From Coprinus comatus (Eukaryota; Basidiomycota; Agaricomycetes; Agaricales; Agaricaceae), in contig JAWPGT010000003.1 of the NCBI GenBank assembly GCA_034638255.1, positions 372,001-436,000 of the forward strand: a stretch of DNA of 64,000 nt, in the 5' to 3' direction. Of this stretch, positions 17,463 to 50,705 are shown piece after piece; the stretch's first letter is position 1, and each line of letters opens with the position of its first letter. The translations under genes and the position numbers were made by a program. Under the pieces are notes generated by a model. That model was given only the letters and a program-made list of their open reading frames with translations. It had not been told where the DNA came from and made no database searches.

Positions 17463-20400
17463 TTAAGTAGATACCGATTCTTGATGTCCCAACAAAAAGC
17501 TCAGCGTTGCAAGCGATGCCCATGGCACAAATTCTAAGCAGAGCCCGATGCTCAGTAACCGTGCTATATGTGCGGCATTGGTATTGGACTTACGCGGTGT
17601 CATGTGTCCGCTGTAGAAAAATTCGACATCTAAGTGCATTGTTAAATTACCGCACCTAGTAATAGGATAATCACATACAAGTCAGTTTACGTTCTGTGTG
17701 GGCTTCTCCGAACACTCCAAAGTCCTTGACTGTAAAGCTTTCGGGTTCAATCGGGGTTTGGAAGCCTTGAGCCCCACCCCAAGTCATGTTCCTATATCAT
17801 TGTTAGCACTTTAAGCAGGTACAAAATGCCGCATGTCATTGCATACTGTATGGCGATCCGGGTGCCTTCTGCCACCAAGATCAAGTCCTATTACAAGTTG
17901 CCACTGGGTCAGAATAAAGAATCGGTACACCGACGGAATGGTTACACACTGCAACGCCGTGTACAACTACAGTCCTCTCGGATTTCTCGATGACATTCGG
18001 CATCACATTGCTGAGCATTGATGGCGGGGATTGGTCACGACCACCTCGACCTGTTCTGGGATCGATGTAGACATTCCTGTTCGAACATATAGACCATTCT
18101 ACTTGAGGTGCGTGTATTGCTTTCTGTACCTGTAACAATTTTATAAGCTTTACTGCGTATCCTTAGCTCACGTAGGTACTATACATCAGTCCTAAACCAC
18201 CATCAATGATCTACTTTTGTACGTCGCGAGAAATAAACTCACCGGTTGAAGTATATGAACTGTTGTGTTGACCTCGGGAACCCTAGGACACTCCCTAATG
18301 GAGGGTTAGCATACCGATCAACTCATCTGGTGATTTCACTTACAGATGTCTGGGAAAGTGTCAGAGACCCTGATATGCCAGCGATTGTTAACTAATAGTT
18401 TAATAGTTTCCTGCAATGGCTATCGTACCGATATACATTAAATGCAGGGTTCAATCTAGGTGTGGATAGTAATGATGGTTAGGGATGATATAGGAACATT
18501 TTCTTGAGTACTTACACACCAACTGCTCGCTGAATCCTATTGTGCAATCGACACTCTGGAGCAACAGTAAAAGTACCATTTGTTCCCACAAGCGGCAAAA
18601 TCCCATTCGGTGGATATGTAACAAATTTGTCTAAATAGTCGGTGTAGCCGCAATCGTCGGAGATGTGCTGGAGTTGATCCCAGAAAGAGCTGTTGAATGG
18701 AAATAGATTCTCATTTGCCTATATATACAGATAAGATGACAAGCCAGACAGCCGTAATGAAACAGCTTACTCGAGCAAAGCGGAGCGCGGGTATCTCCTG
18801 TTGCACTAGGCCAGAGGAAAGGGATGGATCTGCAATCCAAATACCCTTGAGGTTTAGTTCGAGCCCAGGGTGTTCATATATCCAATTTGCGATATATGGG
18901 ACGTCTAGGAATAATTTAGTATGGGTATCCTCCGGTTGGGGAGTAAAATACTCACAAAAGCCAGCATACTTGTCATCGTCGGTTAAAAGTCAATTATTAT
19001 CATCATTGTGAAAATCAAACTTACGCTTTCTCCGGTAAGATAGAAGTTGTTTCCCTTGAGTTCACTAAAAACTTCTAAAAACTGTTCGAGGAAGCCAACA
19101 AGCTGCTCCGCAAGTTCATCGTCGTTAGAAATGCTAGGATCCCCTTGGGTGAAACCGGTCTGTCCTTACTTGGAGTCACCAAAAGTGATGTCGCGTCGCA
19201 GATTTTCCCACGGACAATCATTGATGTATTACTCTCCTGCAACTTCGGGAGATAGACAACGAAGTTGAATACATATGGAGTATATTCTACTACAAGATTA
19301 CCTATAGAATATAATATTAAAATTGTATATGACCACCCCGTGCAGCCAAAACAGCCTTGACACGGTCTGGCATTGTTCCAATGAAATGGTCAACCCGGTC
19401 AATTGGTAGCGAGTCCCATGCAGCATGGACTACCAACTTTAATTCATCCACAGTGTTTGGTTGATGTTGAAGACCACGTAGGGATGTTTTGAGGATATGC
19501 CAGATAGGCTCGATGGGATTTAAATCAGGAGATGATGGAGGATGATATGTAAGCGGGATATTTTTAGCTGCAAACCACTTCTTCGACATTTTGCTGATGT
19601 GGCTTGGGGCATTATCCTGTTGAAATTTGACATGGCCCCGGAGTTCATTCATCCTTTTGTAGAAATCAAAAAGATATGGTTCAAGAACTTGTTCTTGGTA
19701 CCTTTTAGATGTCATTCCTCCACCATGTCCTCCCGGATAGTCTAACACAACCAAAGGCCCCTTCCAACCCTCTATGATACACCCCCCACACCATAACTCG
19801 TATGCTTGATTGCTTGAAGGTTGGGATAAGACATTCTTCAAGAAAGGCTTCATTGGGACGACGGGTTACAAAAATACGGCCCTGATGATCATCAAGACAA
19901 ATATAGCACTCATCAGAATAGATGACACGTCGAAAATTAGCCATCGATGAGATACTATTGATTCGTGCCCAGTTCAATCGTGCTCGTTTGTGCTCATTCG
20001 TAAGGAAAGGTACCCTCAGAGCCACCCTCCGATGGTAGTTCCCCTCAGCAAGAACCCGCCGCACTGTGCTAACTGAAATTTGTAGTCCAATTTCGTTCAC
20101 AATTTGTTGAAAGGGTGTGCGGCGTTCTTTTCTTGCTGTACGAGCAAGCTGACGCTTGTCATAGCTCACCTGTGGTTCCCACACGTGCCCTAGGATAGTA
20201 GGCGGTTTAGCGAGCCCTTTCCACCTACAAGATTAGGCATTTTTAGTAGTTCTCCGGGATCGCAAATGGATTGCAATACCTCAATGTCTTAGACGTGGTC
20301 GCGTCTCTCCCTATAATTATATTATAATACAATGTATATAGGTCTATCACTTCATTGCTCTATACAACTATGTTATAATCATGATCTTATATGTCACCCA

Positions 20401-23400
20401 TCATGTGTATGTTTTCCTCACTCAGAATTTCAATCAAGGTTCAGGCTCCTCCTCATTGTACATACTACTCTGTAATATTAATCTTTTGGTCTTTCACACC
20501 TGTATATGTTGTAGCTATATGTTAGAATAGGAATTTATCTTATGCCTTGGGAAATATCATATGGTACTCAGTACGGTTGAATCCGGAACTCCGAGTCCCA
20601 CGGTGGGCAATCTACATACATATTGTGATATGTGCTACTAATCACAACTTCGGACTCCTAAGCCTTATGAAAACAAACAATATGTTTTGCACAACACATA
20701 CCATAGCTGGTAATTTTTCGCAATTAAACCCCGCCTGTGGTTCCTTAGAAACGACAAGCTTCCTCAATGTATATTTAGTACAGTCCTCGGAGTAAGGACA
20801 TCTATCATTACGCCGTCTATTACTGATCGGATGTAGCTATTTATAATAGTGTTTTTATTTTTATTCTTTCATTCTCCATTTTCTATGTTATATAATATTC
20901 ACTTGCACTGATTCCTACTTGAGACATTAATAGTACAAGTAGCAATAGTAGTTATAGGTCATAAAGAGCTTCAAGTATCATGACCCGACCAGAGGGAGGA
21001 ACTGATTGTCCCACTATCAACGGGCAGCAGATATATTTTAATTAAAGATTACATCCGCCTGTCAAGGTGGAACTAGTAACTACCTGTCAACGGGCTTAGA
21101 ACTCAGTGGTCACACGTCAGAATTTGAAAAGGAAGCGTAGGCGTGGTTACCTCTGCAGGATTTCCTGGCCATGTACTATTTTTAATTTATATCAGACATA
21201 AAGTTTAATCACTCAAAACGGTATTATTGGGTGCACAACTACATTGAAGGAAAACACGATGAGAATAAATCTACCTCACAGGAACTCTGCGACCATTGAG
21301 TCGAGTGCTTCGGCGAGTTTCCTCTGTAGGCGGAACGTTCTCTTTCAGACTTTTACGTGGTCGGGGCGGAAGTCGAATTTTCAAGCGAGTACTATTATTG
21401 TCCGATGAGAGGGTAGGCACCATGGGGGTGTCAGTGTCTGGGAGGACGGGAGCCCTCTCCGTGGGTGGTGCAACATTGGAGAGCGCCAGGAGGGCTGGAT
21501 CAATGACATCATCGGTTATGAGATGTGTGGGTATGACGGATTCAGAATTGTCAAAGGGTGGGGCAGCAATGGTATTTGGATCCATTGGAGTGGTCGAAGA
21601 AGCTTCATTAGTTCTGGCGAAGGGTAGAACTGTTGACAACACATTGACAGGAGGGTGTTCAAGGTTGACAGTGGATGGGGGAGTGGGAATATTTGTTGTC
21701 ATGTCAGCTACATCCGTGACGTTTGAGAGAGGAGGAATATTGGGAGTATCAACAAAGTTGACATGATCAGTGGCATTGGGTGGCAAGCTCAAGACATTGT
21801 CGGGGGGATTGACATTGAAATTGGGATCATCATGTTCAGTGTTGCTGAGTTCAGAGTTGGAGACACCTTCAGCAGAATCGGCAGCCATGTCAATGTCGAG
21901 GGAGTTGGGGGCGTTGTCAGCGGGGTAGATGGGGGGATTAGGTTCATCAATGTCGGTGTCAGAATCACTGTTTACAAACTCCGAGGAGAGTTGCGGGCGG
22001 CTAGCAGGAGGGAACTGACGAATTGCCGATGCCACTTGAGTATTCTTGTCAGAACATTCCTTACGAGGAACACCGATAACACCGCCATTCTGTCGGATCT
22101 CATGGATCTTCACTTTATGAGATTGAATTTGATCAGCTGTCATCACCTGCCAAAAACAAATTTTGGCATGTAATGCATCCTTCAACCGTTGCAAGTATTG
22201 GACGTTTGGAAGATGAGTAGGACTGGTGAAAGGGATATCAGTGGGCCACCCGACTAGCTGAACATGATACTTGATGACAATCCTGTCATCATAGTTATCA
22301 TAGTTCATACGAACATCGTCTCTGCCCAATATAGCTTCTAAACATAATACTATAAGTATAGTCTAAAAATAATTGTGCAATACGTACGAAGGCCTTTGGT
22401 AATATAATCACGACATTGCTTTCGGAGAGTTTTATTGTTGATATGTTCAACTTCACCTATACAGGATTTAGAATAATGAATGAATGAAGATTAAAAGAAT
22501 TTAACACTCACCTTGGCGTCGACTAGTTGAAAAGACTTCCATCCGAGCAGCTCTCTCAACTGGATTGTACCCCAAAGATCCTTTCGTAAAACCTCGCAAA
22601 TTCTCGGATTCAAAAAATGCAGGTGGAAAGGTATCGTGCATATGTCCCCGTGCGACAGCCAATAGTGTCGTAGCTCCAGTTCTTTTCCCCATGAATGATG
22701 CCTAAATTACTAGGTGTTAATAAAGTTGTCAGAATAAATAAATAAAGACTTACTTCTTTTTCAAGACAAGCCACGGTACGATTAACATCCCGGGCAGCAC
22801 TCCTGTTAGTCGGACGAGCTCCTTGTTGCTTGAGTTCACGCCGAGCCATTGCAATTTGCAACACACGAGCTTCTTCTTCTGGTGCAAGAGGGCGGTGATT
22901 CCTATCAGAACGATCCTGGAAAACCATTGCTCGAAGCTCCTTTAGCTTGTAATTGTTCCCGCCAATGGTATCTTGAACAACATATTAGTTCCGATCGAGT
23001 GAAGACAATAGAAAACTTACTGAGTTCTGCAGCTTTTGCGGATACCTCAGCCTCAAGTACGCTCAGTTTCCTCTGACGCTTGAATGAGGACCCAAAAAGG
23101 ACAGTGTTGAACACCTTTTTCTCGTCGGCGGCATACTTCTTAGCAAGGTCTTGAATACGTTGTTCGTGCTCAGCCTGTAATTGAGCAACTTCATCATCAA
23201 GTGCAAGCTGGTTTGCTTTCCTTTTTTTTGCCTGAAGGGCTAGAGTCTTCTTCTCAGCATCACTTCGATAGATTTTCTTCCGAGAACGTTGAGGTTGTAC
23301 AGGCTGCAGAGGGTTCCGTAATGCATACGTAGCATCTGAGATTGGTGGTGGTGAGATGTGAGAGCACGTGACGGTGTTGAGGTCCTACCTTGCTCTTCAT

Positions 23401-26400
23401 CGTCGAACATTCTTTCTGTACTCCAAGGAGGCGAGTATTTGGTGCTCTCAGTTGGTATGTTTATATATCGTCCCTCTGTGTATTTCTTTTTTCAAAATTG
23501 ATAACAGGGATAAAGCATAAACAAATGTAATATCCGCCATGTAATGTCACTTCAAGACGCCGTGCATTAGAAAGAAAAAGAAGCCCTTCCTCTAACTCTA
23601 ATTTCTGGCAGGTGTAACCATGATATATCGCCGTCCATTCTTTCTTCCTTCCCCCCATCATGAAATCTTGCACCGACAAGGTTGAAACCGCCAGTTGTTC
23701 AGGTGAGCAAAGTTGTTCAACATTTGCGACAATTTTCTGATACAACTTATGCAGCACAACCAGAGTCCCTCACCACCATGGAGGCTATCTACTCTGATGC
23801 TCAAAATTCTCTTTTTGACTCTGACCTCCCACGTTATCCTTTCTACCGTGCTCTCTCTGGACCCGCTTCCAGTTTTAATAGCCAGCCTAGTTGGCTGGTA
23901 CGCCCTTTAGGCCCTAATCCACGTGTTGGTTGGACCACGGCCATGGATGAGTGTCGATGTGAATGCGCTCCTGTGGTATATGTTGTTTTTTCCGGCAAAA
24001 TGATAGGAATCCATGTTGAGTGGTGAGTATATTCATTCCATTTTTACTATCAACATTTTCTAATCAATACTTAGGGACAAAATCAAGTTCATTAAGCAGC
24101 ATATACCATCTCCTCGATTCAAGGGCTATCATGCTATGGAGGATGCTGAGTTTGCATTCGCTCAGGCCAAGTACTTCAACCTGATTGGCGAATCTATACC
24201 TGATGATTGGAAAAACCATCATCTCGTCATTCCTACACTCACCAGATGCAAATTGGATAGCAAGAAGAAGGCAAAATATAGTACAAAGCATTCTGAATCC
24301 ACTACTCCGGACAACTCGCAGGCGCTTTCCAATCCGATTGCTCCGCCACCAGTTTTCCCATTGTCACCCGCGCCCCGAAAAACATCCAGACCTCGTAAGG
24401 TAGTCACACCTCCACTGTCCTCCCCTGAAGTTACCCCGCTTCCTTCTGTAGATAAAAAACCGAGTTCTGTCGACATTTTTAGTTTGCGCGCGCTTGCTTC
24501 TGGAACTACACTTGACAAGAGTACCGCAGAACTGCTTGCTAAGCGAAATCAGTCTCCTCTTCTTGATGAAAAGGTCTCTATCATGGCTGATCAGGCTGAT
24601 AACCACTACCATATTGTATGTGTGGGCCGTTATCCTGGTGTCTATCATGGTCGGTAAGTTTCATTTTCCTCCTTTCCGCCTTCCTCCCTCATTCGTTGGT
24701 TCTTTTGGTAGTCGCACTGCCCAATTGAATATGGGAAGTAGTCCTGATGGACAAATCATCAAAGCCGGTTCTACAAGGAGCACTGCAAACATGTTGTTTG
24801 TAGAACTTTTCATGGATGGAAAGATTATTTCAACCTCCCCTACCCCCTCGGTTCTTCAATCCCCGCCTATGTATGAGATCTCAGTTCCCATCATCCCATC
24901 CAAGGATCAGTCCTGGTGGGTCATTCCGTCTGGTCCTCGAGTCGGACTCTGCTATGACAGGTATGTGTGTGCTTATCCAAAAAAGACCAAATTAGACTAA
25001 TGGTTTCTTGAAGGCAAATTGCAAATGTTATTGCTGGGTCCGCAAATATTGATGGAATGGTGAAGTGTCCGACTTTCGAGGAAGCCTGTTCCATTTTCGT
25101 AACAATGTATATGACTGGTGGGATTACTATGTAGCATGTATGATCGTGGTATAGCAGTGTATGTGCATGTGCAATTGAATATGGTTTTGGGCCCTTGAGG
25201 CAATTTTGGTATTTTTGAAAATGTTCAGAATTTTTAATTTAACAATCAACCCGATTGACGGAAGAAGTCAGATCTTCAAGATTTAATTGAGCTTAAATGA
25301 CTCGGGATCTTTTTCTAGCCATATCAGGCAATCCCTGACATGGGCGGGATCCCGACTCTGTCCCGCTCTCAGATATCTCTCCCCTTGTAACATGCCAATA
25401 ATTTGGTATTATTCTAGACTCTTATGCTAGAATATACTGGAATACATTAGATACAACACTGATGGGCTCTAACTGACACTGTCTCAGTGTGAAGGACAGT
25501 ATAATTGAACTATCACCCGGGTTACACCTGTAATATATCAGTACAAGTAATGGCCGGAGAGCCCAGTAAAAAATTGAATTACATTTAAATAGACTGAAAC
25601 ATACCAAGTATACACTCCCGCCCCAATGGATAAGATGACTTTAGTATAAAATAAAATCGACATTTATATTCAAAGTCTACTTATATGTGAAATTATACAG
25701 TCAGTTCTTTGAACCATGCCATGAGTTTGTGCTCTAAGGTGTTTAAATAATCATATCTTTTGAATTTAAATAGTCATCCATGAGTAGAATGAAATATGAA
25801 AAATGGTTACATTGCTGAACCGAAAGCCCTTCTTGGTACCAACTGTACTTGTGTACACATTACGGGCCTCGTTGTGTGTACCTTCCAATATATTGATGAT
25901 CGGGTACTATGTTGGCCAAGATTTATATAAATCTGGTGTATATCATGCATTTAACGGTAAGTGCTTAAAGCGATCATCCAGCAATCGTTTGACAAAATAT
26001 TTCTATATGTTTGTGACATAGCATTACTTATGTTCAAATATATTTATCAAGTCTGTTTGTGTCATTGACACAATAATTGTACTCCCACGACTTATTATTG
26101 AATAACCGTATGGTTTAATGTTAAGAAATAGCTACATTCAGGAAAACTTGACCCAAGGTGACCGTACACAAAATATTCATTTATTTACAGCATTATACAG
26201 AGACAAACACTTGTTTTTCCATTCCACTATATTTCACAGACTCTGAGAGTAAAGGGCGATTTGGTTGGTGAGTATATATAAGACGCAGACCGGGTCATTT
26301 GTAGTGTTAAGAATATCACAAAAAGGGCCCATTATCGGTATATGAGTTCTCGGTGGTGGCCGTGGGAAGATATCAAAGATCAACCGTGTCGCGTCGTACT

Positions 26401-29400
26401 TTGTTTATCAACTCTCCTATACTACACAACCTTATCATATGGGCAAAGCTCCGCTAGGAAAAAGGTTCAAACTTGCTAAGGGCTTTCGTACATGGAGACA
26501 TGTTGGTCATTCCAACCACAGTGGAACTGTTGTCTATGGCCATCAAAAGGCTCAAGTCCAACTCGCGTTCCACAGAGAAGGACTAAACCATTCCTCCTGT
26601 AAGATATTTATCCTTTATATTTCACCTCCCCTATTAACAATACTAATAGACTCCAAACCTTTGGAGCATGGAGAAGAATACCCTGAAGACAGTAATATGG
26701 CAGACATTGATGATGTTATGAGTGGTCGTGATCAAGTACCACTCAGTAATGCGGGTGGAGAACTTTTTGACATCATCTCTGAAGAGTTACGGGCCAATGG
26801 GTGGGTTTACTCAACATATAATACAATCTAGCTCTTAACTAATGAATGACAGACAACCTCGTCAAGATACCAGAGATAGGCGAGACCGTATCATACGGCG
26901 GAATGAAGGTTTCAAGAATCAAATCCCCCATATGACCGACAGTTACCTTAAATGGAGCCAAACCAACTCGCATAAGGATCAGGAGGCCTCAAAAACATAT
27001 TATGAATGGGACGGAAATGCTCTACCCGAAGATATTCAAAGTACGTATGACATTGTCATTGATACATATTGTGAGTTTCAGCTCCAAAATACTCTGTTTC
27101 TGACTTATCTAATTATTTCATAGGGTTGGAAGTCAAGTCGATTCCTCTTCACAAAGGCGACTACAGTATCGCAACAAGTCTCATATCGCAAGGGTTAATA
27201 CCTTGTTCTCCCTACCACCCTACAGTTGCCATCACCATCCGAGCCTTAGAATCTTTTCGAGTATTCTCACTACGTTGTCCACGATTCGCAATACAAATGT
27301 ACATCAAGTCAATTGCTGACTTACACCAGGTATGTATTTATTACATTCGAACAATTTTTTTGGCCTCATTGGGAGGTTAGAAACCATATAAATCATACCT
27401 TACCAAGCAAACTTCAATATGCTTCGATGTCTACTTAGCTATCCTCGAGGAGATCGATAATCGCTTACACAAGGCACTAGCTAGAGATGCACCACATAGC
27501 CGATTGAAACGTGCTTGCCCGGCTTGCACTTATGTAGTAGAAGGAGAACCGGACATGCGTTTCAGCATCCTTTTCACAATGGATGGGAATAATGCATTGA
27601 AACGCATGCCTAAACGGGAGTCGCTTGGGGAGAGAACAATTGGGGCAATAAATGAATTACCTGATGATCGGACTGGGAATTATGACTACTACATTGATAC
27701 CAAGGAGGTCAATAGATGGTTGCCTAGTAAAAAAAAGAACTCTCATGCTGCCAGAAACACGCATAATGGAGAAGAGACTATGACCGAAGTCCGTTAATTA
27801 TTTTCTTTTTATTTCACCATTACTGATCTTTATTACATAGGATGAAGACAGTCCTTGCTCCGAAAAATGGAAGAACATGTCTGAAAAGGCCACCGCAAAA
27901 GCATTTGGGATGTTTGAAGAGACGGGGGTATTTGTGGCAGTGTGCCGGCATGGTTTCATTCTGGTATATACTGACATGATTCGGAGTGGCGAAGGGTAAG
28001 ATTCTTCTATTTATCATCAATATCTATACATTCTAATCATTCTATATACTAGTACTCAATACCCGCTTGCTGTTGTCAACACTCTTATGGATACATTCGG
28101 TAGGAAATTGGGAGGAGGTTACGACATAGGATGTCGGTTCAAAACATCATTAGCAAAAAGTGAACTTGGGACTCGTGCTCGCGAGCTTGAGTACACTTCT
28201 CTCATTGGCGCTTTTCATGGACATGCCCATAATCGGCAGTGTCAACTTTCTTTTCTTACAACATATACTGAGGGTCTGGGTTTAAGTGATTTAGAAGGCT
28301 GTGAACGTCTATTTTCCCGATCAAATGAACTTGCATCAACAACGCGACATTGCAGTACCTTCCATCGGCACCAACGAATTACCAGCTATTTCAAACATTT
28401 AGATGAAACCGACACATATGAGTCACTTAGTGAGTCACCGTACATAATCTTAATTCCTGTTGAACTAAGTGACTTTACAAAGGCAAATATCTTGTTACCA
28501 ACCATAAACGAGCCCTCGACCTCCTAGCTGATAAGCCTGCTTTTGAAAAAGCTAAACACAGCATGGGACTTGAGGATGATTCGGTATTTAAGAAGTGGCT
28601 TGATGAAGAACGCGAATATCTGGCAACGCGTGGTGTGGAATCATTACAAGAAACTTGGGAAATGGAATACTTACGACATCTAAAGGACCTGAACAATGCA
28701 CAGTATGTTTTATTTCTTTTCATATATATACATAATAAATAACATGGAATTATAGGAACAAGCTTGCTTCTACAAAGAAATGGTTCATTGAAACGCCCAC
28801 TGAGCCATCCGACATTAACACTGCTTCTATTACTGCAAAGCTGGAACGAGAACGCAGGCATGCTCTTGAACTCGAGACATCAAGCATGAATCGTGTTCAA
28901 GAACTAGAGGTTAAATTGGGTATCACAAAGAGATGGGAGGAGGGTGGCGAGAAGTGGAACCAGGTATCTGAGCTGATAGCAACTCGCGATTATCGGCTGA
29001 AGCTTGGGAAGCTGGAGCAATTAGTTGTGGCGCGTATATTTGAGCTTGGGCGAATGAATGGATCACAAAAGGGTACACAAAATTTTTATCATAATAAAAC
29101 ACATTAACATATATATAATAGGCTATAAATTGCGACAACAAGTCGCTAAGGCACTCCAAGCTCGATCTAAGGCTGTAAAGACAGCCCTGAAAGAGTATAA
29201 CGATGCTGCAAAGCGTCTCGTTCCACCCCGACCCTGCTTAGAATGGCATCAGGTTGTCGAATATGCGTTCCTATCAGAGTTTGAGCTACTCGCTAATTGT
29301 TCTGATGATATCCGGCAAAAATCATGGGCCCAACCAGCGGCACGACTACTGATGGACCAGTTCTTCAAGATGGAACGAGCACAGGAAGAAATAGTCCGTG

Positions 29401-32400
29401 TGGAAGTGGAAACGACCCGATTTCTTACTTATATGCGTGATGAAGAAGCATTCCTTGACGTGATGGAGGAACGTCTTTCGATTACAAACCCTCCTCTTGC
29501 CCACCAGATTCACCTCCGAAATCAAAGATTAAAACTCGTCAATCAGCAACATATAACTGTACTCGAAGCAGCTGGACTTCTGTCATCTCCTGGCCAAGCT
29601 GTCACCCACGTTGCAGGCGATTTAAAGTCAACTTTGAGCAATCAACCAACCTTGCCACTTCACAAACCTCTCCCTCTCACTTCGGAAGACCAGCATGCAC
29701 AAGAGGAACTTGAAGATGAAGAGGCCGATGAAGAACTATGTCACGATCTTGAGTCTATCCTTACTATGTCAGAGGAGGTTGTAATATGAGCAGTCTGATG
29801 TGTTCCCTAAGCTATCCTTAATCACTGTTGCTATTGACTTTTGCTCTTATGTTTTCTGTTTACTCGTGTACTTATTTGTAGCCCTTGCAGTGTTGTTATC
29901 ATATCTTGTGTACTGATCTGTTTTGGGAGTCCGTGATGCCATCACCTGAGAATCTGAGATCTTGGTGTCAGCACCCTGACCCTGATATACGTCAAAAATT
30001 GACGATCACATCAATCTTATATATCGCAAGTGAACTTGAACAAACGACAGGATCTATGTACATCTACGATGTGTAATGACCCGCAAAGGTAACGACCAGT
30101 CCCTCCTTAAAATCTCCACCAAATCTCAAGAATAAATACTTCAATGATAGCGAGTGGGATAACTTGGCTGTGTAGTATTCCTAATATATAAAAAATACGA
30201 ATGTTATACATTTCTTGAGACCGCAGATAACAAGGAACATACGCGTTTGTAGAGGGATTGATAGTATCCTTCATAACAGTTGACTTAGCAAAGAGATCTA
30301 TAAGCACAGATATATCCCCATCTACAAAGGACAACGTGGCTGGAGAAGTAGGGACTTCTGTTGAGTAGATCTTTATTAGTATAATTAAATGGAAAACAAA
30401 TAAACAATCACTTACGTGGAGGCGTTGATTGAGATTGAACCGACTGAGTTGAAAAGATCAGGCAACCTGACGACATTGTAGGGAGGGGAATAATGGAGGT
30501 CCTGAAGCCTGAAGTCCCGTTTGTTGGAAAATACGGACTATTATTAGATAGTCACATGACATTTTCATTTTGTTTCACTTTCATCGTTTCATTACGCTTT
30601 GCATTATGTGGCAGCTCCTTATTGGTTGTAGTTAGCGTTTCACCTATGTGTTTCAACTCCTGTATCAACTCCTGTTTCATGTATAATTACCTGACACGTA
30701 GTAGACACCTGACTCCTTTCTAGTCGTAGCACGGACCACTTCATTATCATATAAGTAGTGTACTTTCTCTCTTGTATTCTACAGTTCTCGAACTAAAAAG
30801 TTCTCTTACACTCTATTCTCTCCACCAAGCAAACATACTAACTACCACTTCGTGCGTATCATTATATTGCTATGTCTACATGCATACGCGTTGCTTTCAA
30901 CAGGTTATGGGCCCCGACTAGCCAGTATGAATCCTTGAGTTCGACGAGACACATAGCTCCTCAGCATGTTAAGTCATCTCACTCTCGGAAACGTGTGGTT
31001 CACGTCGACCAACCTGGAGAGATTGAGTCCTGTTCCAGGCCCTCAGAGATTTCGTCTCTCCCTCTCTGGTGTGATGCTTGCTCCATACTACCGTACTCGG
31101 TTAGACGGAAAGCTCGCAGAACTGTTGCTGGCGCACGTATGTGCGACTTACAACATGAGGCTAACATGTGTTTTGTTGTAGATTCCTATCTCCAATTCAT
31201 CATCATGACCGCGCTCATCCCTACTTTGCCCGTTCTCAAAGGTTCAGCCGACTACCCTATGTGGTCGATGAAATTGATTAACTGTGCAAACATGATCATC
31301 ATTGACGGTTATTCTGTGGGACAAATCATCCTACAGAAACAGAGTCCAAAGTCTCAGTCAGAAGAATATACCATCCCTGCCAGAGCTGCTACGGATGATA
31401 CACCCGCACGCGCTGCACAAACTGGTACAAGATGGATAATTCCTGATGCAGAACAGACTAAATTCGATAATGCTGAGGCTTTTGCCTTAGGATTAATCAA
31501 CTCTAAAATCTCAGATGAAATGTTAAATCACGGAAGAGTCTATTCTTTTGAACTTTGGGAACACCTGCAAACAACCTACGGCACATTTAATGCAGGAACT
31601 GCATTCGAGGTGTGGGCAAAAGCGGACGGCTTTAGGTTATCTGGCACTGCAGATCCTTCGGCCGAGATCGCAATGTTCACTTCATATTTCACTCGCCTCG
31701 AAACTGCAAACCCCTATCATCGTTCCCAACCTCCTTCGAGCACTCATGCTGTTGACGCGCATTCCAAACCAATGGAATGCAACTCGAGCTTCTCTTCTCG
31801 TTCGATACGGAAGCTCTGAGTTCTCTAGGCTCACAGTACAGATCGTTGCTGAAGCGATCCAGTCCGCTTGGCTCGACTCTCGTGGTCAAGCTAACGCTTT
31901 ACGTTCTCAGGGTGTGAAGGGCTTTAAAGGCCCTAAACAACACAACCAAAACCAAAACCAGAACCAAGGTCAAGGTTCGCGCCCGCAAGGGCAGCAACCG
32001 CAACCTCAACAATCTGGCAGCGGTTCTGGTTCCGGTCAGACCCAACAGGGGGTGGGAGCCGGTGAGGACAAAAAGAAGAAGAGGACTCGGGGAAAACGTG
32101 GTGGTAACAAAAATGCTAAGTCCGCGGACACCACTAATACCTCTACTACTGGGGTAGATGCAGCTGCTTCTAATATCGTCATGCTCAACAATTTCGCCTC
32201 TCCTGCTGCTACCGTTTTAGACCGTCCCTTCAAATCCACTCGTGCTTTTATTGAGGAAATTAGAGAATCCACTCCCGAGAAGGTAGTCGAGCGTAAAGCT
32301 CCTACCGTGGTTCCAAACCAACTCATGGGAAGGACCCGATTGCAAAGGACCAAGGCCCGGGTGCTCAAGTCCTACGAACGTCGTCTTGGTATGGAGCCTA

Positions 32401-35400
32401 CGCCTCCCCCTGCCTTGCCTTCGCTCGATGGTCTAGTTCTTACCTCTCGTCCAGCCTGTGAGCCTAGTCCCCCGCATTCGGTAGTCTCTATTGACGAGAA
32501 TGATAATGTTCACATGCGACCTCCGCATGATCAGGTGTCTGCTCCGGCATCTGTCTCTGTTCTTGATGAACAATATGAACAAATCATGAACTCGCCCTCT
32601 ACCCAGTACGATACCGATGACGGGGAATACAAGTACGTAGAATCTCTGATCAAAGATTCATCTTTTTCTGATGTGTGCTCTGTACAGCGTGGACCCCGAA
32701 GCAGCTCGCTTCTGGGGTGTTCCAGAAAATTCCTCCGCTCCGGGTTCTCCCGCCTCTCGCTTCTAAGCTCGAGGGCAGTTGATGGACTATCGAGATCGTT
32801 GCATGGGACTACTAGAACTATTCGGACTACTGTTTGTAATCCTCCACCGCTAGATACTGAGATTTGTATTTTTCCCGCCACGAATGATACCGCACATTAT
32901 GATTTTCCTATTTCTATCCCGATGAAGTACTTAAAACCTACTGTTTCGATCTCAGGATATGAAAAAGATGACCATGGTAAATTCTTTGAACATTGTCAAT
33001 GCAGCAATTGCAAAAATCACCCAGTGTATAATACTGGTATAGCAATCTGGATGCTCGACTCTGGCGCTAGTTATCACTTCACTGGTAACATTGGCGACTT
33101 CGTTGACGTCGAGAAGGGTGATTACGGCACGGTGCAAACTGCTAACAGTCACACCACCATTAAAGCACGTGGCCGTGTAATCATCCAGCATGAATTGGCT
33201 GGTGTACGAACCATCACGTCATTATACCCGGTATTTTACATAGAGGGATTGAATGGAAGACTTATGTCACCAGGACCCTTTTATCTTGATGGCTTAAGGC
33301 TTGAGGCTGATGTAACGGGATCTCGGATCCTACGGCCCGATGGCTCCCTCTATATGGAGGCTACTCAGCGGGTAAAGGGTGATGGAATACATATGGTTCA
33401 TTCTAGAATCATATTGGATAGTGACATCCGTTCCCTAACTTTACCTGGAGTTCATTCGCTTTATGATCTCTGGCATAATCGACTTGGACATCCTTCGAAG
33501 CAAGTGCTCAGGAAGTTCAAGGAACACACGGTTAATTTTCCAGACGTCGATATTCCAAAACGGTCAAGGACATGTGATGGTTGCGCTCGTGGCAAGCTGC
33601 AGGAAAAGGCTCATCCTCCATCATTGTCCAGAGCTACCGAAATATTCGAGTTGGTCCATTCGGATCTTCTTGAATTTCCCACATTATCATATCACCGTGC
33701 AAAGTGGATCATCACGTTCTTAGATGACTACTCCGGTTTTACCTATACTCGATTTTTGAGACAGAAATCCGATGTTTTTGCGACATTCCAGGAATTCTTG
33801 GCTCAAGTTGAAACCCAACATGGGAAAAAGGTTAAACGAGTTCGCACTGATAATGGGGGGGAATATATTTCGGACAAATTGAAAAATTTGTTTAGCTTAG
33901 CCGGTATTGTTCACGAGAATACTGCTCCTCATATTCATGAGCAGAATGGACGTGCTGAACGCTTGAATCGTACAATTCGCGAGAAGTCTGAAGCCATGCG
34001 ACTTCATGCATGTTGTCCAGAAAATTGGTGGGAATTTGCTGTGGAAACGGCAATTCATATTTATAATAGAACACCAATGAAACGTCTCGAGTATCGAACG
34101 CCATTTGAATTAATGCACGGAAATAAACCTAATGTAAATGGTTTACATGTGTTCGGATGTGGAGCTTACGTGTACCTGCCGCCTGCTGTGTGCGAAAATA
34201 AACTCGCAGCCAAGTCGGAGACAATGATCTTTTTGGGTTATGATGGTAGTAACCTAAAGTTCATGCGTCACCAAAAGGGAAACGTCATTTATATAGCTCA
34301 CACAGCAATCTTCGAGGAAGAGTGGTTCCCTAAATGTGAATCAACTGCCACTGATCGACGTAGAGATCTACGAACACCCCCAAATCCTCCTGATGACCTC
34401 TTTGACGGAATGTCAGATGATGGATCAGACACAGATTATTTCGATTTCCCAGCAGATCCCCCTGCTACTCCTCCGAAGACACCGAGTAATCCTACTCGAC
34501 CTTCAGATCCGCCTGCCCCACCAGCTCGCGATCCCTCTATCCCACCTCCTCCAATTCCTCCTCCTAAATCTCCCTCCAGACGACCAAAAGTCGAAACAGA
34601 GGATGAAGATGACGGATTGAGTTATGCGAGTGAGGATTCCCTTGATCATCACCATCATGATGGTCACAATCACGATCATAGAGATCATTATCATCCGGCT
34701 GAGACACCAAGAAGATCTCAACCTGAAAGAGCACAACGTCCCTTACCAAAACGTGCTCAAGAAGGTCCTTCTTTCGAACCGCGCCGTTCAGGCCGCGAAC
34801 GAAAAGTCCCGGAAAGACCCGATAATGCCTACGGACATAAGCATCCGTCTGAAATTCTCCGTGATTATGATACCATTTCTCTGGAAGAACCTGGTCCATC
34901 AAACCGGTTCAAGATGCCTCGTGGCAGACCTCAAAATCTATCTGACGAAGAAGCTCGCCAACGGCTTGAGCAATATGGTGAAAACTATAAACGTTGGATG
35001 GAGAGTCAAGGGGAGCGCAATCCTGCTGCACCTCCTGAAGATGAGGATGAAATGCAACAACGGCTTTCCAGGGAAGGGGGGTTAGAATGGATTAATATTT
35101 TGCTGACAAAAGCCAAACTTGCGCATAGTAATGCTGCAAAAATCCCTGTTCAATTCCGTGATCTTGGTAAACTTGATCCAGAAGAAAGACAGAAATGGCT
35201 GGAAGCATGCAAAGAAGAGTTGACAGCGCTTAAGAAGCGCAAGGTATATGAAATCGTGGATCTCCCTAAGGGGAGGAAAGCTATTCAAAACCGATGGGTT
35301 TTCAATGTCAAAGGAGATGGCCGGAAACGTGCTCGTCTCGTGGCAAAAGGTTTCTCTCAAGTCGAAGGTATCGACTTTGATGAACTCTTTTCTCCAGTCG

Positions 35401-38400
35401 TACGTTATGAGTCCACTCGTATCCTTCTTGGCTTAGCAGCCTTGAATGATTGGGATATTGAGGCTGTTGATGTAAAAACAGCGTACTTATACGGAAAACT
35501 GGATGAAGAAATCTATATGAAACAACCCGAAGGTTTCATCAGGAAGGAAGGAAGGAATAAAGTCTGGAGGTTATACGTCGCGCATTGTACGGCCTTAAAC
35601 AAGCCGGACTGGCCTGGTGGAAGGAAATGGCAACTTCCATGAAAGACCTAGGCTTCAGTCGATGCGAATCCGATGCTGGCGTATACATCTACCGAGACAA
35701 GAAAACTGGCAAGATCTGCATTGCCGTTGTCTATGTCGATGACGTACTATTCATGGGAAATGACTCCGCCCTACTCAAAAAGTTAAAAGGGAAGTTCATG
35801 AAACGTTGGGAATGCCGTGATGCCGGTGAAGTTAAAGAATTTCTAGGCATGCGCATCCGCCGTGATAGGAAGAATCGGAAAATCTTCTTGGATCAAGCTT
35901 CTTACTTACAAAAGATCCTCGAACGATTTAAGATTGACGGTGCAGGCAGAGAAACCAAACCGGCGCGAACTCCGCTGCCAGAAGGTTACCATGCCGTTCC
36001 TAACACAGGTCCTGTCAACGCCACGCTTCGAACACGCTACCAACAGGTGATTGGATCACTGTTGTACTTGATGATTGGAACTCGCCCGGACATTGGGTTT
36101 GCAGTTACTAAATTGAGTCAACATGCCCACAACCCAACTGAAGAGCATCTCAAGCGTGCTCTATATATTTGCCGATACCTTCTCGCTACCAAGGAATACC
36201 ACATGGTGCTTGATGGAGGAAAAGGTGAAGGTTTTATCACCTATAGTGATTCAGATTGGGATAGTGATCCAACGGACCGTCGTTCTCAGACAGGCTACTT
36301 CACGTCTCTAGCCTCCTGTCCAGTTGCATGGGTCAGTCGATCGCAAAAGACAGTTGCCTTGTCCTCTACTGAGGCTGAATATATGGCGCTTTCTGATAGC
36401 TGCCGTCAAGCTGTGTGGATCCGTCAGCTAATGATGGAACTCGGTTTATCTAATGGTGAACCGATGGAAATTTGTGGAGACAACATGGGCTCCCTCTTCA
36501 TCGCTCAAAACCCTACAGTTGAGAAGAGGTCAAAACACATTGACATCAAATTCCACTTCATTCGGCAATGTCTTGCTGATAAGAAGGTTCTGTTATTTTT
36601 CATCCCTGGCACTTCTAATCCCGCAGATCTTCTTACAAAGAACCTTGGTCGAGTTAAATTTGAGAACTTCAGGAACAGTCACTTTGGTTTAGTGTTTTCG
36701 TCCCCAACTTTTGCTGCTTCCAAGCGCACTTTAAAAAATAATATGGATTAGTGAGTATTGGCGCTTAATTGTCGACTACGCTTACGAAAAGGGGAGTGTT
36801 GGAAAATACGGACTATTATTAGATAGTCACATGACATTTTCATTTTGTTTCACTTTCATCGTTTCATTACGCTTTGCATTATGTGGCAGCTCCTTATTGG
36901 TTGTAGTTAGCGTTTCACCTATGTGTTTCAACTCCTGTATCAACTCCTGTTTCATGTATAATTACCTGACACGTAGTAGACACCTGACTCCTTTCTAGTC
37001 GTAGCACGGACCACTTCATTATCATATAAGTAGTGTACTTTCTCTCTTGTATTCTACAGTTCTCGAACTAAAAAGTTCTCTTACACTCTATTCTCTCCAC
37101 CAAGCAAACATACTAACTACCACTTCGTGCGTATCATTATATTGCTATGTCTACATGCATACGCGTTGCTTTCAACACCGTTTGATTCTTATACAACAAT
37201 GAACATAATTCGTGAGAATGTCAGAATTAAGGAAGCTTCAATGTATAAGCATTGCTCCATGGAAGCTGGAGAGTGGAGTAGAGCGTGGCCTTGAAGGATT
37301 TCAAGAGCCGAATAAAAATAAAAACACTATTATAAATAGCTACATCCGATCAGTAATAGACGGCGTAATGATAGATGTCCTTACTCCGAGGACTGTACTA
37401 AATATACATTGAGGAAGCTTGTCGTTTCTAAGGAACCACAGGCGGGGTTTAATTGCGAAAAATTACCAGCTATGGTATGTGTTGTGCAAAACATATTGTT
37501 TGTTTTCATAAGGCTTAGGAGTCCGAAGTTGTGATTAGTAGCACATATCACAATATGTATGTAGATTGCCCACCGTGGGACTCGGAGTTCCGGATTCAAC
37601 CGTACTGAGTACCATATGATATTTCCCAAGGCATAAGATAAATTCCTATTCTAACATATAGCTACAACATATACAGGTGTGAAAGACCAAAAGATTAATA
37701 TTACAGAGTAGTATGTACAATGAGGAGGAGCCTGAACCTTGATTGAAATTCTGAGTGAGGAAAACATACACATGATGGGTGACATATAAGATCATGATTA
37801 TAACATAGTTGTATAGAGCAATGAAGTGATAGACCTATATACATTGTATTATAATATAATTATAGGGAGAGACGCGACCACGTCTAAGACATTGAGGTAT
37901 TGCAATCCATTTGCGATCCCGGAGAACTACTAAAAATGCCTAATCTTGTAGGTGGAAAGGGCTCGCTAAACCGCCTACTATCCTAGGGCACGTGTGGGAA
38001 CCACAGGTGTCATAGCTATTTAGCTTCTTCGGCCTGCCTATGCGAGCTTTGTCAGCAACTGAACCAGTCACTTCATAGTGCTTGATGATGCGTTGTGCAG
38101 TCCGGGGCTGGACATTCTCCTTTCGGCCTGCTTCAGCTGCATTTCCTGTTGCATGGTAGTACCCAATAATTCGGTTTCTTGTGGGAATGTCAACCTCTCT
38201 CCGAGAAGTCTTTGGCATAGTAGTTAGAAAGGGTAGAATATAATTATATTTCGCCAAAAACACAACATGTCATTCAACATGTGAAACAATCATTATGTAA
38301 GCAACATCACTTTTGGTGAGTACGAGTATGCGTCAAAAATTGATGTTATATCATGTGTGAGATTGGCACCCACCCCGACAGGTTGTTCTACCCAGAGAAC

Positions 38401-39020
38401 ATGGGCAAGATTAGTCCATGAGAATGTATTCCTATTGTCAAGTTTTAATACAATATAAAATAAACAAAGGGAGAGGCACTGACGGGGTAGGTTCAGATTG
38501 ACCCCAAGACCAAGATATTGGGCCGTTCTCTTGTAAAAATCCTTCAAGAGAAGAGCAGCCAGGACCACCTGAAAACGTAGGATGGGAGTGTCAGTGCGAC
38601 ATTGGTCCATGGACAACAGTAGATAGTACCATTAGTCCAGAACACAAGATCCTTAGTATTTTCTGGATTATTGGTTGGCCAAAACCAGAAGAAAAGTTTG
38701 CGTGTTTCATTTTTAGCTCCAGATATCGGCATTAATCCAGACCAAGATGGGCCAGCATCAAAATTGACGTCGGGAATTTTGTTTCCGTCAACCAGAAATT
38801 GTTCGGCTTTAGGGTTTCTGAAGGTAATGGTACTCTCGGGTGGTTGTTGGCGCCTGCTATTGATATTTTCCATGGTGGGTCCTAGGAAGCTGCGAAACCT
38901 TTCAAGTTGTTCGCGTTGAGTTTCCATTGCGATTTCCATGCCTTCCATGGCGCCTCCAAGACAGAGGACGCCATGAACGCAGGTGATGGCAATTAGGAAA
39001 GATGAAAAAAGCCCTCGCAT
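17463..39020 (-). CDS. Serine carboxypeptidase (S10) split by a 19.2 kb transposon-filled intron
   Basis: This is a secreted or vacuolar carboxypeptidase. The 5' part runs from the ATG at 39,020 (signal peptide MRGLFSSFLIAITCVHGVLC) through KLFFWFWPTN, the oxyanion motif GGPGCSSLEG and VLWVEQPVG at 38,374. The intron runs from the GTGGGT donor at 38,373 to the CAG at 19,162-19,160. The reading resumes in phase with TGFTQGDPSISNDDELAEQL, then YLTGES/YAGFYVPYIA with the nucleophile Ser codon at 19,025-19,027. The Asp is in HGVA/DLILVAEG (17,885-17,887), the His in YSGHMTPQ (17,604-17,606), and the TAA is at 17,463. About a dozen other introns are short. I see no stop or frame break in the exons. 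Whether the giant intron is still spliced is unknown. Confidence 0.85.
19167..19168. repeat. TA target site of Tc1 insertion, left copy
   Basis: The TA next to the left Tc1 terminus pairs with the TA at 38,321-38,322. The host intron is otherwise contiguous on both sides. Confidence 0.6.
19317..20166 (-). pseudogene. Tc1 transposase, C-terminal piece with frame break
   Basis: The piece starts at the KDZ junction in SYDKRQLARTARKERR. It has the HTH/linker region, then the first catalytic acidic residue in VIYSDECYICLDDHQG, the second in KFQQDNAPSHISK and the third in SPDLNPIEPIWHILK, a DD34E-like pattern of Tc1. A run of six G (complement of C near 19,782-19,787) shifts the frame between RVMVWG and CIIEGWKGPLVV; five G would restore it. 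It ends at the TTA near 19,317. It is broken both by the frame shift and by the KDZ insertion upstream. Confidence 0.85.
20159..20166. repeat. 8 bp target duplication of KDZ element, left copy (TCATAGCT)
   Basis: TCATAGCT directly precedes the element start CACCTGTGG and is repeated directly after the other end at 38,010-38,017. It belongs to the interrupted Tc1 transposase reading frame (codons for S-Y-D region). Confidence 0.92.
20167..20865 (+). repeat. KDZ left terminal inverted repeat, 699 bp
   Basis: It reads as the reverse complement of 37,311-38,009 over its full length wherever I compared. It begins CACCTGTGGTTCCCACACGT, where CACCTGTGG and CCACACGTG can pair. The motif CCTGTGGTTCC recurs inside the repeat at 20,734-20,744. 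An 82-codon open frame falls in both copies but lacks any sign of being a gene. Confidence 0.9.
20866..21270. other. KDZ internal spacer next to left repeat
   Basis: AT-rich, no open gene. The phrase TCAACGGGC occurs twice (near 21,016 and 21,088), a small direct repeat. It is the 3' flank of cargo gene 1. Confidence 0.5.
21271..23410 (-). CDS. KDZ cargo gene 1: coiled-coil protein with GWP-motif domain
   Basis: No known function. The likely start at 23,410 gives MFDDEEQ, then an intron and DATYALRNPLQPVQPQ. A basic, Lys/Arg-rich coiled coil follows (KKTLALQAKKRKANQLALDD, VAQLQAEHEQRIQDLAKKYA), consistent with dimerisation and nucleic-acid contact. The middle includes LRAMVFQDRSDRNHRPLAPE. 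A compact domain follows, with DNYDDRIVIKYHVQLVGWPT and VQYLQRLKDALHAKICFW. This motif recurs in uncharacterised Agaricomycete proteins as I recall them, a claim not checked here. The rest is a long Ser/Thr/Pro/Asp-rich disordered tail ending RLNGRRVPVR. About six exons. It is divergent from cargo gene 2 with 367 bp between the starts. Confidence 0.75.
23411..23777. promoter_or_regulatory. Shared divergent promoter of the two KDZ cargo genes
   Basis: This 367 bp gap lies between the two start codons. It suggests joint control of the two cargo genes. TATA-like TTTATATA occurs near 23,460-23,467 on the plus strand. No further motif can be assigned. Confidence 0.45.
23778..25134 (+). CDS. KDZ cargo gene 2: protein with viroplasmin/RNase H1 N-terminal-like segments
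   Basis: The ATG at 23,778 has a strong context (CACCACCATGG). Four exons: 23,778-24,022, 24,075-24,653, 24,712-24,960 and 25,014-25,134. The first domain reads VVYVVFSGKMIGIHVEW and then SPRFKGYHAMEDAEFAFAQA, the pattern of the small nucleic-acid-binding fold at the N-terminus of RNase H1 (viroplasmin/Cauli_VI family): a YVVF.G strand, a GI... turn, and a RFKGY...EA helix. A Pro/Ser-rich linker follows, then a second related strand YHIVCVGRYPGVYHGR. A third piece, GMVKCPTFEEACSIFVTMYM, resembles the closing helix of that second copy. No RNase H catalytic domain is present. A role in binding RNA:DNA or transposon intermediates is inference. Confidence 0.75.
25135..26438. other. 1.3 kb KDZ internal spacer with small hairpins
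   Basis: No confident gene. ACACTG-TCT-CAGTGT (25,476-25,490) is a perfect small hairpin. TGGGCTCT (25,463-25,470) pairs with AGAGCCCA (25,558-25,565). The right end holds the transposase promoter with a TATA box. Other short open frames show no splice or codon signs. Confidence 0.5.
26273..26282 (+). promoter_or_regulatory. TATA box of the KDZ transposase gene
   Basis: TATATATAAG lies about 157 bp upstream of the transposase ATG, a good TATA match at a plausible distance for a gene with a leader of roughly 125 bases. Confidence 0.5.
26439..29789 (+). CDS. KDZ (Kyakuja-Dileera-Zisupton) transposase, apparently intact
   Basis: This is the transposase of the host element. The ATG at 26,439 gives MGKAPLGKRFKLAKGFRTWR. 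The family core is clear: LIPCSPYHPTVAITIRALES, RCPRFAIQMYIKSIADLHQ, then KRACPACTYVVEGEPDM and LFTMDGNNALKRMPKRE. Next come CSEKWKNMSEKATAK, GMFEETGVFVAVCRHGFILV, YTDMIRSGEG, LGGGYDIGCRFKTSLAKSEL, IGAFHGHAHNRQCQLSFLTT and DLEGCERLFSRSNELASTTR. Acidic residues in MDGN, YTDM and LEGCER are candidates for the catalytic triad. The C-terminal third is helical and charged (coiled coil). It ends SEEVVI at 29,789. About ten exons are read with short introns; one donor (GAA/GTCCGT near 27,789) is weak. Estimated product about 930 residues. No stop or frame break was seen. Confidence 0.9.
29790..30140. other. KDZ spacer, convergent 3' ends
   Basis: This lies between the transposase stop and the 3' end of the small minus-strand gene. 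A 63-codon frame exists but nothing supports it. Presumably it holds two terminators. Confidence 0.45.
30141..30476 (-). CDS. Small three-exon gene inside KDZ element, unknown product
   Basis: Three exons can be joined with good GT-AG signals: the ATG at 30,476 (MSSGCLIFSTQSVQSQSTPP), an intron GTAAGTG...ACAG, an exon with LSFVDGDISVLIDLFAKSTV, and a second intron GTATGTT...TTAG. A short last exon ends at a TGA (30,141-30,143). The product is about 71 residues, with a Ser/Gln-rich start and an acidic amphipathic middle. It is convergent with the transposase. The Copia element landed 46 bp upstream of its ATG and separates it from its original promoter. No homology was recognised. Confidence 0.45.
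30517..30521. repeat. 5 bp target duplication of Copia, left copy (CCGTT)
   Basis: CCGTT precedes the left LTR and is repeated at 37,178-37,182 directly after the right LTR. Confidence 0.9.
30522..30902 (+). repeat. Copia 5' LTR, 381 bp
   Basis: TG...CA termini with the inverted tips TGTTG/CAACA. A TATA-like CATATAAGTAG near 30,748 could serve the genomic RNA promoter. Confidence 0.93.
30903..30914 (+). other. Copia primer-binding site, likely half-tRNA-iMet type
   Basis: GGTTATGGGCCC directly follows the LTR. GTTATG matches the complement of the anticodon loop of initiator tRNA-Met, the half-tRNA priming used by many Copia elements. The tRNA assignment is inference. Confidence 0.5.
31205..36751 (+). 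pseudogene. Copia gag-pol polyprotein with two frame breaks
   Basis: The likely start at 31,205 is MTALIPTLPVLKGSADYPMW (gag). The frame shifts by one near 31,700-31,710 (from FTRLETA into PIIVPNLLRALMLLTRIPNQ), inside gag. The long following frame has a Gln/Asn-rich gag end, the protease MLDSGASYHF (about 33,050), the integrase zinc region (HNRLGHPSKQ...CDGCARGKL) and catalytic core (VHSDLLEFPT, RTDNGGEYIS, HEQNGRAERLNRT). A His-rich linker follows near 34,645-34,697, then the RT start. A second shift occurs near 35,574-35,580 just before RALYGLKQAGLAWW. The remaining frame has YVDD (35,732-35,743) and RNase H with SSTEAEYMAL. With both breaks the element is unlikely to be autonomous, unless they are read errors. 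Confidence 0.88.
36797..37177 (+). repeat. Copia 3' LTR, 381 bp
   Basis: Same length and, as read, same sequence as the 5' LTR. The polypurine tract is at 36,787-36,796. Confidence 0.93.
37178..37182. repeat. 5 bp target duplication of Copia, right copy (CCGTT)
   Basis: Direct repeat of the five bases in front of the left LTR. Confidence 0.9.
37311..38009 (-). repeat. KDZ right terminal inverted repeat, 699 bp
   Basis: Mirror copy of the left repeat. Similarity stops at AATAAAAATAAAAACAC on the inner side. The subterminal copies of CCTGTGGTTCC are at 37,432-37,442 and 37,997-38,007 on the minus strand. Confidence 0.9.
38010..38017. repeat. 8 bp target duplication of KDZ element, right copy (TCATAGCT)
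   Basis: Perfect direct repeat of the left copy. An 8 bp duplication is known for the Zisupton/KDZ group and also for hAT elements. Confidence 0.92.
38018..38218 (-). pseudogene. Tc1 transposase, N-terminal piece
   Basis: The ATG at 38,218 begins MPKTSRREVDIPTRNRIIGY, a helix-turn-helix DNA-binding region (NVQPRTAQRIIKHYEVTG) followed by the basic hook RIGRPKKLN. The frame ends at the KDZ target site, in the codons for SYD. The other half continues from the far copy of the 8 bp duplication at 20,159-20,166 in the same phase. Confidence 0.85.
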
Positions 39021-42800: not shown

Positions 42801-43149
42801 TATCTTGAACACACAAACACATTCTCGAAATACAAACTCTAATCCACGGGCAACCGCGGGCCTTCGACGAAGTTCAGCCCAATATCATCCTTCCAAACCA
42901 ATTTCTTCCCACAGGAGAGCATCATTGCCTCCAACAACTAAGACTCTTCCTCTTCCTCTGCAACTGTCAATCGAGAGAGAACCAGAATCTTATGGTTTAC
43001 CTGCCCCGATTCAACTGACGTCACTTCAGCCACCACTACTGCCTAACAATCCTCTCATCACACAATCATTCCCTCCCTTCGGCGAGGACTTCTCGCGTTA
43101 TCCTGCTTCCATCTCGCCAACATACTCTGATATGAGACGACTTTCATGA
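39863..43149 (+). CDS. DUF300 / TMEM184-like (organic solute transporter alpha family) membrane protein
   Basis: A seven-span family (Solute_trans_a) linked in fungi and plants to vacuolar or endosomal membranes. The ATG at 39,863 gives MSSHNETDAEKC. Segments join as HHVGWIIAGCLTLVATATSI, KREQRYIVRLLFMVPLYAII, RDCYESTVLTAFFYLLLMYL and a loop with WVFPFGFVKRKPS. They continue with LQLMKWGVLQYCVIRP, VTVIVSLSVTIAMYCLIQLY, LKLFAIKAVVFLTFWQ and ALLETLEMM/IFAFLHIRAF. These are hallmark DUF300 motifs (CYES, KRKPS, FxxxKxVVFLxFWQ). A long cytosolic, Ser/Pro/Arg-rich tail of about 500 residues follows, ending YSDMRRLS at 43,149. About ten introns. The tail is typical of basidiomycete members. Confidence 0.88.
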
Positions 43150-43483
43150 TTTTTACGACATATGACGAACGCGTGTGATATATACCCACTTTTTTATTAC
43201 TTATTTTTATCAATGAAAGGTTTTTCTTTAGCATGTGGTTGTGAACTAATGATTTCTTCTGTAAAATATCTGGTAAAACGTTGACGATGTATATCAAACC
43301 TCCTAAGACGGGAAACTTCACTGGCTCCTCAAGGAACATTTCCCTTGTAGTCTACAGGGTGTGTTTAATGTATAGCATCAACAATATCGTTTAAAACTTA
43401 AAGCAATGTACTCGAACACGATTCTTTATGACTTCGCAAATGCGTAAATAATGAATGATAATTGTACCCTTCTGAATTTCTAT
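43150..43483. other. Spacer between convergent 3' ends
   Basis: AT-rich 334 bp between the DUF300 gene and the aldo/keto reductase, both ending here. No gene or repeat seen. Confidence 0.55.
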
Positions 43484-45027: not shown

Positions 45028-45222
45028 TGGGGTGATATTGCTTAAGTATTACAATACTTCTGCGTACCTCATGTGCTTCCTCATCGATCATCACACTCAT
45101 TGTGCCGGACCGGCAGCAGTCTATTTTTAACCCATTTCAACATACGGTTACAATGAGTTGAACATTGAAAGGCGAACAGCATAAAATAATTACATAAAAA
45201 GTCCTATGGGTCCAAGCAGGTA

Positions 45223-46089: not shown

Positions 46090-46538
46090 TGTGTCTCGTG
46101 GTCGGTGTTGACTTGGAAAGTGCAGCACCCAAGCAACGGTTTGGTGATCTCATTGTTGATGTGACTGTCACACAGTCATTAAGCGGGTAAATGTTCAGAG
46201 GTGACTATAACTGGGGTATATATTCACAATAGAAGCCTGTACAGTCAAGTGTGCTAATCCAACCTCCAACCGGATACAATACAAGAGATGCCCTAAAAAT
46301 ACAGTCCTGATATCATAACTCTCCAGCTAGTCCAGAGCAAGCCCGGAAAACAGAAACATTAGAGAGACAATACATGGAAACAAGACAGGAACCATAACAC
46401 AATGGCGAAGTCCAAAGCTCTCCGAACACAAATTAAGAGCAAGAAGAATGTAAGGAATATACACGAGAAAAGATATACCTAAGAAAAAAAAATAACAGAT
46501 GTCCATAGAAAGGGGTATATTCCGTTGCACAGTAGTGT
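46090..46538. other. Spacer between VTI1 start and halogenase 3' end
   Basis: About 450 bp. A 67-codon hydrophobic minus-strand frame exists (46,327-46,530), but it lies directly behind the halogenase stop without a promoter gap and is likely chance. The part near 46,090-46,200 should hold the VTI1 promoter. Confidence 0.5.

Positions 46539-50705
<4,167 letters not shown>

Follow-up and report, generated by a model that had tools for sequence, protein, structure and literature searches.

The serine carboxypeptidase gene analysed here from Coprinus comatus has one intron of 19,214 bp, and its remaining 14 introns are 49–62 bp long. The long intron contains a Tc1-type transposon, which contains a KDZ transposon, which in turn contains a Ty1/Copia retrotransposon. 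The locus raises the question of whether these three elements arrived at one site independently and in a readable order, and of what became of the gene that received them. The window is the whole stretch of 64,000 nucleotides that was analysed; its features are collected in Table 1, and positions are those of the window unless a contig (C) is named.

Table 1. Positions of the host gene and of the three transposon layers in the window
Feature	Position	Strand	Remarks
S10 serine carboxypeptidase gene	17463..39020	-	start 39020, stop ends 17463; 16 exons, 523 aa; gene model
Carboxypeptidase intron 3	19160..38373	-	GT donor at 38373, AG acceptor ending at 19160
Tc1-type transposon	19167..38328	-	TA at both ends; 1311 bp without KDZ insert
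Left KDZ target duplication	20159..20166		TCATAGCT
KDZ transposon	20167..38009	+	11,182 bp without Copia and one duplication copy
Left KDZ terminal inverted repeat	20167..21097	+	931 bp judged from C121 sister; first 700 paired in window
KDZ minus-strand open frames	21271..23384	-	four pieces scanned, no Pfam match
KDZ transposase gene region	26839..29789	+	several exons, splice sites not fixed; extent approximate
Copia left target duplication	30517..30521		CCGTT
Ty1/Copia LTR retrotransposon	30522..37177	+	6656 bp
Copia 5' LTR	30522..30902	+	381 nt, TGTTGG...TCAACA
Copia polyprotein frames	31548-35642 and 35585-36751	+	gag-pre-integrase, integrase, RVT_2
Copia 3' LTR	36797..37177	+	identical to 5' LTR
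Copia right target duplication	37178..37182		CCGTT
Right KDZ terminal inverted repeat	37310..38009	-	700 bp, shortened by 248-bp inner-edge deletion relative to C121 and C80
Right KDZ target duplication	38010..38017		TCATAGCT

The model of the host gene has no internal stop in its 16 exons and 523 codons. Each of the 15 introns starts with GT and closes with AG, and the product matches Peptidase S10 (PF00450) at E 3e-69 over residues 92–512 of 523. The interval 17463–39020, which the preliminary description gave for the nest, corresponds in this model to the limits of the host gene. Exon 3 ends at 38374 and exon 4 starts at 19159, with the transposon stack between them; without the stack, intron 3 is 54 bp long. 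Where exons 3 and 4 are joined, the protein is of the EQPVGTGF type, as are 110 of the 120 listed homologs, the other 10 lying outside the pattern used.

These homologs are 57–87% identical to the carboxypeptidase (120 listed of 4064 matches, from a search that scored only the 7995 candidates with most words in common). The closest listed single-copy homolog is 87% identical over residues 25–523. Among the matches listed, the Agaricus bisporus protein is 82% identical over 90% of the query and that of Lyophyllum shimeji 77% over 100%, and the source names of the homologs point to Agaricomycetes. The top-listed match is an 888-residue protein filed under Ganoderma adspersum. It consists of two tandem S10 units, the best piece being 66% identical, so its high score does not indicate near-identity. 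A search of the C. comatus genome for S10 genes gave 31 matches, none of them a Tc1-free allele of this gene; the locus itself was matched only as two halves (C3:391025–391231 and C3:410507–410575).

A pseudogene was considered, since the 3' half of the gene seemed to contain two frame breaks, and was rejected when both disappeared with a 7-nt exon (18191–18185) and a donor at 17678. The model requires this very short exon to keep its frame. The gene is adjoined by a multifunctional tryptophan gene on the minus strand (14666–16729; GATase, IGPS and PRAI domains). Other host genes matched by Pfam in the window are an Ostalpha-type transporter (40311–40673, plus strand), an electron transfer flavoprotein alpha gene (55223–56017, plus strand) and a gene with RRP12 HEAT repeats (63119–63913, minus strand). 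An Rfam scan of the whole window at gathering thresholds gave no match.

The outermost element is of the Tc1/mariner type. It is flanked by a TA duplication, has inverted ends (28 nt, 86% complementary) and encodes on the minus strand, in two frames, a transposase with DDE_3 and HTH_Tnp_Tc3_2 domains (PF13358, E 8.1e-13; PF01498, E 7.9e-18). A search of the genome gave 32 matches including that of the window, and 21 of the 31 others begin exactly at the base that corresponds to 19167. All nine copies inspected have TA on both sides. Two of the copies, C9:230013–231011 and C89:17822–18820, share the 12 bases to the left and the 12 bases to the right of the element, and may therefore lie within a duplicated segment or within another repeat.

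The KDZ element lies inside the transposase frame, as had been proposed, and the Tc1 reading frame is continuous when the KDZ site is joined. The preliminary description went further and stated that removal of each layer restores the layer beneath in frame. This is correct for the Tc1 frame across the KDZ site, but that frame has in addition a one-base change of length unrelated to KDZ, and discounting the insert therefore does not give an intact Tc1 frame. In the layer above, Copia may or may not interrupt a KDZ frame. For comparison we used 29 Tc1 loci besides that of the window, several of which are parts of one copy. Thirteen of these align in one piece over all 1311 bp, at 89–99.6% identity and without a KDZ insert. 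The 14 bases that precede the KDZ site, followed by one TCATAGCT, are matched exactly in six of the 29.

The middle element has the features of a KDZ transposon: a transposase with a KDZ domain, terminal inverted repeats, and 8-bp duplications at each of three near-identical copies. Its inverted repeats pair over 700 nt (20167–20866 with 37310–38009) with 0 mismatches. The KDZ domain is found in frames 27381–27797 and 28000–28527, with a PF18758 match at E 9.9e-44 and a further, sub-cut-off match at E 0.0066. With residues 60–640 of a hand-joined model as the query, homologs are 41–47% identical over 86–100% of the searched part (120 listed of 631 matches), and the named ones among the matches listed are mostly filed under Agaricomycete fungi. 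The genome holds 86 exon-level KDZ matches.

Matches to CxC2, CxC3 and CxC1 in the KDZ frames are all below their cut-offs (E 0.018–0.14). Matches to a rotavirus model and to a DUF (E 0.093 and 0.14) were set aside as chance. The larger frames gave only the KDZ domain when scanned with Pfam, with no TET/JBP or other cargo among them, a scan that short exons could escape. Open frames outside the transposase are also present at 24064–25000 on the plus strand, and the pieces scanned have no Pfam match; these frames and those on the minus strand at 21271–23384 are possible further genes of the element.

Near-identical KDZ ends pair at two other places in the genome, C121:25528–37042 (11,515 bp) and C80:22651–50657, where the copies are flanked by 8-bp duplications of their own, CCACCTTT and GTGCATTT. 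Both of these sisters are continuous at the Copia site and have a single CCGTT there. The search with Tc1 gave no match on either contig, so neither sister appears to sit in a Tc1 element. Among the three copies, a 248-bp deletion at 37309/37310 is private to that of the window. The window copy also has a private base that its two inverted repeats have in common, at repeat position 277.

The innermost element is a Ty1/Copia retrotransposon inserted near the right end of the KDZ element. Its LTRs begin with TG, end with CA and show 0 mismatches in 381 nt, it is flanked by a 5-bp duplication, and the integrase precedes the RVT_2 reverse transcriptase (rve at residues 701–795, then RVT_2 from residue 1232 in the same frame). 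RVT_2 spans two overlapping frames, and the reverse transcriptase of this copy is therefore split between frames. The 5' LTR is followed by GGTTATGGGCCCCGA, a putative primer site, and the 3' LTR is preceded by AAAAGGGGAG, a putative polypurine tract. GGTTATGGGCCCCGA may resemble the half-tRNA primer site of Drosophila copia. Of 105 candidates in the genome, 40 matches to the LTR were scored, the two in the window among them.

The nesting of Copia in KDZ, KDZ in Tc1 and Tc1 in the peptidase intron is thus confirmed, with exact duplications at the three levels (CCGTT, TCATAGCT and TA). Uninterrupted sites with a single duplication exist for both the Copia and the KDZ insertion, and a chance origin of the junctions is therefore excluded in practice. 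Successive insertion, which the preliminary description had drawn from the nesting, explains every junction. A Tc1-type element would first have entered intron 3, then 54 bp long, at a TA. A KDZ element would then have inserted in the Tc1 transposase frame, duplicating 8 bp, and a Copia element would finally have inserted near the right end of the KDZ element, duplicating 5 bp. We regard it as almost certain that three independent transpositions took place at this site in that order.

Fewer than three insertions would be needed if a KDZ or Tc1 element had moved as a unit with the inner elements already inside it, and the Tc1 element could have contained the KDZ element when it entered the intron. 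The sister copies argue against this: both near-identical KDZ elements lack Copia and neither appears to sit in a Tc1, and the 13 whole Tc1 loci lack KDZ. A 19-kb unit with Tc1 ends would also be far outside the 1.3-kb size of the family in this genome. We consider such a composite very improbable. An error of assembly, in which repeats from different places were wrongly joined at one or more of the duplications, is conceivable, since each of the three families has multiple copies, near-identical ones among them. Misjoined repeats would not, however, yield exact 5-bp and 8-bp duplications around complete element ends, nor would they return the host intron to 54 bp in a stop-free gene, and the KDZ copy of the window has substitutions of its own as well as two deletions, of 86 and 248 bp, that are private to it. 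Either explanation would need exact duplications at three levels together with matching uninterrupted sites on other contigs, and to a misassembly, too, we assign very little probability.

The order Tc1, KDZ, Copia in the favoured reading of three successive insertions follows from the nesting and not from divergence. The Copia LTRs differ at 0 of 381 positions. The KDZ copy of the window differs from that on C121 by 25 substitutions in about 11.2 kb, as well as by the 86-bp and 248-bp deletions and small indels. The Tc1 copy has 2 private substitutions and one 1-base indel in 1311 bp within a set of eight young copies. These figures agree with the nesting order but cannot separate the steps in time, and dating of the layers by divergence was rejected as there are too few changes. 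Judged from the sequences, all three families seem to have moved recently. Given the Tc1 length change and the split Copia reverse transcriptase, present activity of these particular copies is not shown. At this one site of a fungal genome, the order in which three recently active transposon families arrived can be read. Since the assembly also contains uninterrupted versions of both inner targets, the relative order is secure, and the locus can serve as a simple presence/absence marker for telling strains apart.

The stack lies 7 bp upstream of exon 4 and falls between a putative branch-like motif, TTGAC, and the AG acceptor. If intron 3 were retained, translation is computed to end after residue 204; if the first downstream AG in the Tc1 element served as the acceptor, it would end after residue 178. 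Both predicted stops precede the serine of the GESYAG motif at residue 223. On account of these early stops and of the position of the insert 7 bp from exon 4, the gene is probably off unless the 19.2 kb is removed precisely. The 19.2-kb intron thus probably inactivates the carboxypeptidase gene, by silencing or by truncation as far as can be predicted from the sequence.

The host gene might instead still function, with the whole 19.2-kb intron precisely spliced out. The stop-free exons, the GT/AG ends at all 15 introns and the 87% identity to the closest listed single-copy homolog are what such a gene would have, but a carboxypeptidase frame without breaks is also what an insertion of recent date would leave. 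The stack stands between the presumed branch site and the acceptor, in a gene whose other introns are 49–62 bp, and either an alternative AG or retention gives stops before the GESYAG serine. We consider a functional gene unlikely. If the stack were spliced out, the locus would be a case of three selfish elements at a site neutral to the host.

Nested insertion is not rare in this genome, and inactivating or not, the stack is an unusually clean example of an ordinary kind. The Copia family of the window is found inside another Tc1 copy with a 5-bp ATTCT duplication (C2:70795–78442), and it abuts a Tc1 fragment at C109:53285–54198, where one side is seen. The KDZ copy on C80 carries two other inserts with TG...CA edges, one of which lies in a KDZ terminal inverted repeat. 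They extend over 31014–38429 (about 7.4 kb, apparent duplication ACAA) and 40657–49744 (about 9.1 kb, TTACT), sizes and duplications being read by eye from the junctions. From their edges these inserts are probably LTR elements.

The locus teaches no new mechanism, and its layers resemble elements known from other fungi. The published KDZ elements of Cryptococcus neoformans are about 9–11 kb long with inverted repeats of 139–241 bp. KDZ1 is about 11 kb and has 241-bp inverted repeats, 8-bp duplications and a CxC1 domain, while KDZ2 and KDZ3 have inverted repeats of 139 and 169 bp and duplications of 4–8 bp (PMC12810828). The KDZ element of the window is like KDZ1 in its length of about 11 kb, its 8-bp duplications, its inverted repeats and its KDZ-domain transposase. 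It is unlike KDZ1 in the length of these repeats (931 bp, the right one 700) and in having only sub-cut-off CxC matches. The 931-bp inverted repeat is a difference of degree from the C. neoformans elements. Terminal inverted repeats and 8-bp duplications are also reported for Zisupton, and the KDZ element of the window has both.

Kyakuja elements of Agaricomycetes share with this element the CA...TG ends, the KDZ transposase group and Agaricomycete hosts (PMC12730594). In the two Laccaria bicolor Kyakuja families that this paper describes, the duplications are 7 bp long, terminal inverted repeats are absent and a TET/JBP gene is present (PMC12730594). The element of the window, in contrast, has duplications of 8 bp and long inverted repeats, and the frames scanned gave no match to TET/JBP. 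It does not show the two features taken here from the Laccaria families as marks of the Kyakuja subgroup, a 7-bp duplication and the absence of inverted repeats.

In Pleurotus ostreatus, the TIR_1 Tc1-mariner element is 1.6 kb long with DDE_3 and Tc3-type domains, and Copia families measure 1.0–6.6 kb (PMC4905642). The window resembles this mushroom in having a Tc1-mariner transposase with the same two kinds of domain, and in its Copia element. Nested elements are named in that survey as an annotation difficulty, and the portion consulted describes no three-level stack like this one (PMC4905642). No description of this locus, which may exist, was found in the parts of the literature searched (PMC12730594, PMC12810828, PMC9674265, PMC4905642 and PMC12062965).

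When the three KDZ copies are aligned, 11,142 columns are free of gaps, and of the 33 private changes of the type C>T or G>A in these columns 32 affect a CpG. The copy on C121 has 11 private G>A changes and 0 private C>T changes, all at CpG, and the other copies are balanced (C>T to G>A is 5:4 in the window and 7:6 on C80). CpG is a symmetric site; by a two-sided binomial calculation the one-sidedness of the C121 copy has a probability of 0.001, uncorrected for the three copies looked at, in an unanticipated observation on one copy. The pattern looks as if one strand alone may have been deaminated in a burst. Lesion segregation and a RIP-like event are possible readings of it.
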